From Lentisphaerota bacterium (GTDB taxonomy: Bacteria; Verrucomicrobiota; Lentisphaeria; Victivallales; Victivallaceae), in assembly GCA_015061615.1 (NCBI GenBank), contig SUWE01000001.1, forward strand, positions 62,001-126,000: DNA of 64,000 nucleotides, given 5' to 3'. The notes beneath the pieces were generated by a model. That model saw nothing but the letters and a program-made list of their open reading frames with translations. It searched no databases and was not told where the DNA came from. Positions within the stretch are counted from its first letter, which is position 1, and each line of letters begins with the position of its first letter. The position numbers were made by a program, and so were the translations under genes. Positions 48,018-49,165 of this stretch are shown here, in pieces.

Positions 48018-48046
48018 TTGACAAGTGAAAAAAGTTGAATTATAGT
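48018..48046 (+). promoter_or_regulatory. Strong sigma70-like promoter for a putative ncRNA/leader
   Basis: TTGACA (48018-48023) N17 TATAGT (48041-48046). Confidence 0.7.
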
Positions 48047-48052
48047 ATTAAC

Positions 48053-48155
48053 GGTTCAAGATCGGGGGGACCGGACGTCTGTACGTTAATTCTCCTCTAC
48101 ATAATTACTCCTCGCAGGCGTATGGGGTTTCCGGTCTTGAACTTTTGTTGTTTTA
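48053..48155 (+). ncRNA. Putative compact structured RNA (sRNA or attenuator) ending in a terminator-like stem
   Basis: 12-bp closing stem GTTCAAGATCGG (48054-48065)/CCGGTCTTGAAC (48131-48142), inner stem ACGTCTG/CAGGCGT (48075-48081/48115-48121), about 33-nt loop with two AATT(A)CTCCTC repeats, 3' U-rich tail TTTTGTTGTTTT, strong promoter directly upstream. Confidence 0.55.
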
Positions 48156-48166
48156 CAGGAGATAAA

Positions 48167-49165
48167 ATGGATAATAAAAAATCTTTGGTTCTGATTGATG
48201 CTTACAGTCAGATATATCGTGCGTTTTATGCAATCAGAATGTTGACAAACTCCCGCGGAGAACCGGTCAATGCGGCGTTTGTATTTACCAAATTTTTGCT
48301 TCAACTGGAAAAAAATCATCCATCTGCTTACGGGGCAATGCTTTTTGATTGCGGAAAAGTTCCTTTCCGCCTGGAGCTTAATCCGGAGTATAAAGCCAAC
48401 CGTCCCCCGATGCCGGATTCTTTGAAACAGCAGATCCCGCTGATCAAAGAAATCGCCGGTGCTTTCGGTTGGGAACAGCTTCAATGTGAAGGGTTTGAAG
48501 CAGATGATCTTATCGGCGGTATGGCGCTGAAATATCAGGATTTTTCCGTCGAAATCGTCAGCAGTGATAAAGATTTATCCCAGTTGATAGATGAACGGAT
48601 ATCCATGCTTATTCCCGGAAGTTCCGGCGGATTTGAAGTTCGTGATGCAGCCGCAGTCAAGGCAAAATTCGGAGTTGCTCCGGATATGATGATAGATTAT
48701 CTGGCGCTTTTAGGTGATGCTTCAGATAATATTCCGGGTGTGCCGGGCATAGGTCCCAAACGGGCTGTCGAAATACTCGATATTCTCGGAGCTGCAAGTT
48801 CGTGGCTTGATGATCCTGCCCGGATCGAAGCTGTCGGAACGGTTGCAAAAAAACTTCTTCCGGAACTGGATACCATCCGCCGGAACCGGGAGTTGATCCG
48901 GTTGCGTACAACTTTGCCGGAGTCTTTTGATAAGGCATTGCCGCCTGTACGCAGGGCACCGGATTGGAAAAGAATCACCGGAATCTGTCAGGATAATCAA
49001 TTCAAAAGCATTTTGAAAGAGCTTCCGCCGATAGAGGAGAATGTTTTGGCTCAGCCGGTTTCACAGGAAGAGTTTTGTGATGATCTTTTTGCTTTTGCCG
49101 CGGCTCAAAATAGTGTAAAAACGTCCGTTAAAGAGCCTGAAGAGATTCAAGGAGAGCTTTTTTGA
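48167..49165 (+). CDS. Standalone 5'-3' exonuclease (Pol I-type PIN/H3TH domain)
   Basis: 'LVLIDAYSQIYRAFYAIRMLTNSRGEPVNAAFVFTKFLL', 'CEGFEADDLIGGMA', 'SSDKDLSQLID', 'LLGDASDNIPGVPGIGPKRAVEIL'. No polymerase domain. Confidence 0.9.
   Translation: MDNKKSLVLIDAYSQIYRAFYAIRMLTNSRGEPVNAAFVFTKFLLQLEKNHPSAYGAMLFDCGKVPFRLELNPEYKANRPPMPDSLKQQIPLIKEIAGAFGWEQLQCEGFEADDLIGGMALKYQDFSVEIVSSDKDLSQLIDERISMLIPGSSGGFEVRDAAAVKAKFGVAPDMMIDYLALLGDASDNIPGVPGIGPKRAVEILDILGAASSWLDDPARIEAVGTVAKKLLPELDTIRRNRELIRLRTTLPESFDKALPPVRRAPDWKRITGICQDNQFKSILKELPPIEENVLAQPVSQEEFCDDLFAFAAAQNSVKTSVKEPEEIQGELF

Follow-up and report, generated by a model that had tools for sequence, protein, structure and literature searches.

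The comparisons presented here give good support to the reality and conservation of a compact RNA gene in the bacterial family Victivallaceae. Judging from its sequence features, it is quite probably a stand-alone small-RNA gene whose product masks translation-initiation regions in trans, and which probably turns off the translation of other genes. A preliminary description, made from a single stretch of DNA, had offered two readings, namely a trans-acting sRNA that directs a duplicated CU-rich loop at Shine-Dalgarno (SD) sequences, and an attenuator or translational regulator of the adjacent 5'-3' exonuclease (exo) gene. The former is supported by an ultraconserved loop, a covarying stem and an own promoter and terminator, and is further backed by stand-alone copies in several genera and by the finding that, in a related genome, sites complementary to the loop are enriched where translation starts.

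Parts of the RNA gene in the window

The window, i.e. the whole stretch of 64,000 nucleotides of contig SUWE01000001.1 that was analysed, contains the parts given below. The promoter, stem, T-rich tail, AATT(A)CTCCTC repeats and SD of the preliminary description were all recovered in place, as were the two complementary words on which its exonuclease reading relied, TCTCCT (48091-48096) and AGGAGA (48157-48162).

48018..48046, + strand: sigma70-type promoter TTGACA-N17-TATAGT (-35 element TTGACA at 48018-48023, 17-nt spacer, TATAGT at 48041-48046)
48053..48154, + strand: predicted sRNA gene, with its start at about 48053 and its end at about 48149 in the T-tract (covariance-model match 48052-48149)
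48054..48065, + strand: 5' arm of the P1 closing stem, GTTCAAGATCGG (sequence and covariation)
48131..48142, + strand: 3' arm of the P1 closing stem, CCGGTCTTGAAC (covarying; doubles as the terminator stem)
48076..48081, + strand: 5' arm of the P2 upper stem, CGTCTG core (folding)
48115..48120, + strand: 3' arm of the P2 upper stem, CAGGCG core (folding)
48088..48097 and 48103..48113, + strand: loop repeats AATTCTCCTC and AATTACTCCTC, respectively (window letters)
48090..48113, + strand: ultraconserved loop core TTCTCCTCTACATAATTACTCCTC with two CTCCTC words, consensus TTCTCCTCTTCATAATTACTCCTC (homologue comparison)
48143..48154, + strand: T-rich tail of the intrinsic terminator (sequence; U-tract kept in homologues)
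48157..48169, + strand: SD AGGAGA (48157-48162) and ATG (48167) of the exonuclease gene (neighbour)
48167..49165, + strand: 5'-3' exonuclease (exo) gene of the DNA-repair type, PF02739 and PF01367, the usual downstream neighbour of the RNA

The predicted RNA of about 97 nt comprises one long imperfect hairpin with a large CU-rich loop and a U-tract, and in the letters of the window P1 spans 12 base pairs including one G-U. The single-sequence fold with flanks is unexceptional (z -1.2), and the promoter match alone is near chance, with 6 promoter-like sites in the region against 3.6 expected. It is the conservation across the family that marks the RNA gene as more than a chance arrangement, despite these unremarkable single-window statistics.

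Conservation and phyletic distribution

A DNA search of 60 relatives recovered clear homologues, in which the stems diverge while most of the 17 family genomes with a match keep the loop TTCTCCTCTTCATAATTACTCCTC with no more than one change, and an exonuclease-anchored search brought in more members, whose CTCCTC words are spaced differently. A first covariance model, built from 25 sequences, matched 50 of the 78 family genomes, in 12 genera, at about E 1e-5 or better; a second model, applied with stricter filters, gave no match in about 330 genomes from the rest of the phylum. In line with this distribution, about 85,000 species genomes scanned for the exact sequence pattern yielded 47 matches, of which 43 belong to Lentisphaerota or Victivallaceae, among them the complete genome CP071032 and Victivallis vadensis DSM 14823, a cultured species; the other four lie inside open frames of about 160-1350 aa and are devoid of the hairpin. 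No occurrence was found in viral contigs. The RNA is usually present in a single copy per genome and is absent from some near-complete family genomes (G006, G009). Two copies are found 5.5 kb apart in G073 (L105, 199-290 and 5763-5854), and there are several extra copies in genus g24 (L100, L106, L107, L109, L110; G061, G062), two of which adjoin the same minus-strand gene, presumably one resembling a YgjP/SprT-type metallopeptidase.

Both the stem and the loop, on whose conservation in related genomes the preliminary description had made its proposal depend, are conserved. In a structural alignment of 52 rows, 92.5% of the P1 cells are paired, as against 67% when the 3' letters are shuffled, and controls in slid registers all fare far worse (at most 58% paired). 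The double-change cells in P1 number 152, compared with 44 +/- 6 in the shuffles, a count reached by none of 500 shuffles; they occur in all 11 P1 pairs of the alignment, and the covariation score is 0.79 as against 0.28 in the shuffles. Constrained folding of the homologues gives a median of 23 pairs and an apical loop of 26-46 nt. The core of this loop is nearly invariant over 24 nt and carries the CUCCUC word twice at a distance of about 10 nt, and most members have CAU in the stretch that intervenes; the spacing of the words varies in some. These conserved CU-rich words are accessible and complementary to the SD. Another part of the loop, UACGCAAUU, is also conserved, and anti-SD pairing gives no account of it.

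A sigma70-type promoter matching at least 9 of 12 positions lies just upstream of the hairpin in 77% of the 52 homologues, as opposed to 6% of shuffled upstream regions, and 90% of these homologues have at least 6 T in the 8 positions after the hairpin. The conservation of promoter and U-tract indicates that in most members the predicted gene is an autonomous transcription unit. In four members of the genus of the window (G003, G018, G029 and G031; L046, L047, L048 and L050) the hairpin comes after the stop codon of the preceding gene and has no clear promoter, which suggests promoter loss in these forms, where the upstream operon may supply the transcript.

Exonuclease linkage and complementarity to translation starts

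Upstream linkage to exo on the same strand is seen in 36 of the 43 species loci, the RNA usually lying 80-330 nt from that gene, and this linkage persists even though the genes preceding the RNA change between loci. In the other seven (G034, G066, G067, G070, G076, G086 and G087) it is not upstream of exo; the contig of G070 ends too near to judge the linkage, and at least five of the seven have enough downstream sequence. The separated loci come from members of about five genera, and in three of them (G066, G067, G076) the gene downstream of the RNA is on the other strand. Both copies in G073 are likewise away from exo, and a gene for 453 aa stands between the RNA and exo in G017 and in G033. 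The occurrence of stand-alone loci in about five genera implies that the RNA is separable from exo and is no obligatory leader of that gene. The special pairing of the loop with the exo SD proposed in the preliminary description was not borne out, the complementarity being average: the loop pairs with 22 exo starts at -11.9 kcal/mol as against -11.3 kcal/mol for other, sampled genes (p 0.15), and 39% of the sampled gene starts in the genome of the window pair with the loop at least as well as the start of exo does. On account of this average strength, the exo SD was rejected as a special target.

These observations bear on the reading of the RNA as a cis-acting leader or attenuator, in which the hairpin would end most transcripts before exo and a binder of the loop, whether mRNA, ribosome or protein, would tune read-through or translation. 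Its appeal lies in the same-strand position upstream of exo in most loci despite the changing preceding genes, in the lack of room for a second promoter between the terminator and the exo SD in the window, and in the four relatives whose hairpin trails a preceding stop codon and has no clear own promoter; moreover, action in trans gives no account of the strong linkage. We nevertheless regard it as unlikely, given the loci of about five genera in which the RNA is not beside exo and some neighbours are unrelated or on the reverse strand, the gene that intervenes before exo in two genomes, and the average complementarity to exo starts. In addition, no alternative antiterminator partner is visible, because the RNA begins at P1. 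Attenuation of exo or sequestration of its SD is thus not upheld as the main function, while the frequent linkage makes some cis effect possible. In the preferred reading of the RNA as a trans-acting sRNA, exo would be an old neighbour, maybe receiving read-through transcription, and would have no privileged place among the targets.

Complementarity to translation starts in general provides further evidence for action in trans. The analysis covered 1.6 Mb of the related complete genome G100, half of its sequence. The 1228 gene starts in it, which are our own SD-guided calls, a limitation common to the controls, form predicted duplexes with a mean of -12.6 kcal/mol as against -9.0 kcal/mol in gene interiors, and this mean is better than those of all 60 shuffled loops. 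When all positions on both strands are considered, translation starts, which make up 1.4% of the scanned sequence, account for 28% of the 25 best complementary sites and for 21% of the best 100; the corresponding values for shuffled loops are 7% and 6%, with maxima of 20% and 15%. With both CTCCTC words left unchanged during shuffling, about 10% of sites fall at starts (maxima 24% and 17%), and these lower values suggest that the whole loop, beyond its anti-SD words, fits the starts of this genome. A weak signal in the same direction comes from the 0.59 Mb part of the genome of the window, with 6% at starts against 2.8 +/- 2.0% in shuffles, or about 1.6 sd.

No conserved target emerged from the comparison of 90 orthologue pairs, across which pairing strength is uncorrelated (rho 0.06). 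The strongest single prediction is the Ni superoxide dismutase (PF09055) of G100 at -31 kcal/mol; it was rejected as a conserved target, since the pairing is strong in G100, G101 and G071, weak in g24, and the gene is lacking in the genus of the window. A superoxide reductase predicted as a target in the genome of the window (-18.7 kcal/mol) was set aside likewise, its strict SD-start pattern being found only in that copy and the one in G026. An antisense sponge or a single target with long complementarity was also discarded: searched with up to 3 mismatches in 60 genomes, the 24-nt loop matches essentially only the RNA itself, the one other match (G038, 3 mismatches) being in the same sense. 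Hydrophobic N-termini are more common among the top predicted targets (about 42% versus 24% overall, p 0.013), a trait dismissed as weak given that shuffled loops yield 29%, with a maximum of 44%.

Taken together, these features suggest the following course of action. RNA polymerase would start about 7 nt after TATAGT and produce a transcript that, from sequence and covariation, should be a single hairpin whose stem and U-tract also act as the terminator. The pairing of the 5' end in the long stem should stabilise the RNA, and the apical loop of 26-46 nt would be held unpaired, presenting its two CUCCUC words. This loop would then pair in trans with the SD and start codon regions of several mRNAs, blocking the binding of the 30S subunit. 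Such pairing would probably proceed either independently of a chaperone or with some chaperone other than those searched for, because Hfq was detected in none of the 78 family genomes, where the controls worked, and neither ProQ nor CsrA in any of a sample of 21, in searches that did detect both in positive control genomes. A more far-reaching and tentative proposal, to which we give rather less than even credence, is that the RNA serves as a global translation regulator of the whole family, with an apical loop complementary to the entire initiation region (SD, spacer and start codon) that could read many starts at once, in bacteria apparently devoid of Hfq and, where sampled, of ProQ and CsrA.

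Other readings and relationship to known RNAs

A second alternative holds that the loop, in place of pairing with mRNAs, is a decoy that mimics the anti-SD tail of 16S rRNA or titrates a protein that binds pyrimidine-rich RNA. The near-invariance of the 24-nt loop, including UACGCAAUU, exceeds the needs of generic anti-SD pairing and, together with the lack of a conserved mRNA target, speaks for such a role; the variable spacing of the CUCCUC words in some members, and the clustering of complementary sites at the starts of G100 beyond word-preserving shuffles, make it about as improbable as the leader. The classic titrated protein, CsrA, binds GGA and not CUCC. The RNA thus has neither mark of a CsrA-titrating RNA, since the conserved loop offers CUCC words in place of GGA and the 21 sampled genomes yielded no CsrA. 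Very little weight attaches to the reading as 6S RNA or another housekeeping RNA in diverged form. The long, imperfect, terminator-like hairpin and the usual single copy are in line with it, and the 6S model (RF00013) matches neither the window nor any of 41 family genomes; yet the RNA has about 97 nt as against the 187 positions of that model, its open region is apical and not central, it is missing from the near-complete G006 and G009, and its stretch matches no Rfam family even at E 10. Least credible of all is a plain terminator, which would not preserve a 24-nt loop, or a mini-ORF on the antisense strand. The complement of the loop (GAGGAG-TAATT-ATG-AAG-AGG) does resemble a ribosome-binding site, of the form GAGGAG-spacer-(ATG/GTG/TTG)-AAGAGGAG, with a start-like triplet that is ATG, GTG or TTG in most members (G026 being the exception), and it beats 99% of genomic ATGs; 15% of composition-preserving shuffles reach the same level, and it was therefore rejected as a designed site. 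The minus-strand mini-ORF was rejected in turn, given that the promoter and U-tract lie on the + strand, the copy in the window reads ATG TAG, and the codons that follow vary between members.

The preferred trans-acting sRNA has analogues in other lineages. Like the cyanobacterial sRNAs Yfr1 and Yfr10 (PMC2190773, PMC6778093), it is short, bears a terminator and has an ultraconserved unpaired word containing ACUCCUC; as in Yfr10, the CU word sits in a loop atop a stem (PMC6778093), and as in Yfr1, the gene neighbourhood is conserved (PMC2190773). Yfr1 differs in having 54-69 nt, two stem-loops with an unpaired stretch between them and one ACUCCUCACAC (PMC2190773), as against one hairpin of about 97 nt with two CUCCUC words in the Victivallaceae; here ACUCCUC is followed by GC or UAA rather than ACAC, and there is no CACAC tail. 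Yfr1 and Yfr10 also belong to a different phylum. The LhrC1-5 sRNAs of Listeria pair with SD regions and are independent of Hfq both in their stability and in their pairing with lapB (PMC4132741). They share with the RNA several redundant CU-rich sites per molecule and, in relatives such as G062 and G073, the multicopy state, and differ in that their words are UCCC and are spread over two loops and a linker, whereas UCUCCUC and ACUCCUC here share the one apical loop of a terminator hairpin. Comparable C-rich loop words, which bind the SD and so block initiation as is proposed for the RNA, characterize the UCCC-motif sRNAs RNAIII, RsaE, SprD and FsrA of low-GC Gram-positives (PMC4132741); they are of another lineage and have the idea in common with the RNA, not the sequence or structure. 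The Streptomyces sRNA s-SodF has a link to the regulation of sodN, which encodes a nickel superoxide dismutase (PMC3919588), and a Ni superoxide dismutase likewise heads the predicted targets in G100; s-SodF is, however, processed from the sodF 3'UTR, while the RNA has its own promoter and Ni superoxide dismutase is absent from the genome of the window.

A match to a known family, for which the preliminary description had recommended an Rfam search, did not appear at or above the gathering score in Rfam 15, Acido-Lenti-1 (RF01687) included, and the literature searched and Rfam yielded no described regulatory sRNA for Lentisphaerota or Victivallales. Given this, and the departures from the sequence and structure that define Yfr1, the RNA is filed, by analogy, as a new family of a known functional kind, the CU-rich anti-SD trans-acting sRNAs. 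It thus stands as a deeply conserved candidate sRNA, carried by a cultured species and with a covariance model at hand. If its proposed role is true, it would add a further lineage, beside cyanobacteria and Firmicutes, with CU-rich anti-SD loops, in a family with no detectable Hfq. As for other RNA genes in the vicinity, the sole Rfam match in the window is the bacterial small SRP RNA (RF00169, 52000-52097, + strand, 57.4 bits), and at locus L089 of G100 a tmRNA gene, identified by its Rfam match, is situated about 1.2 kb away from the RNA.
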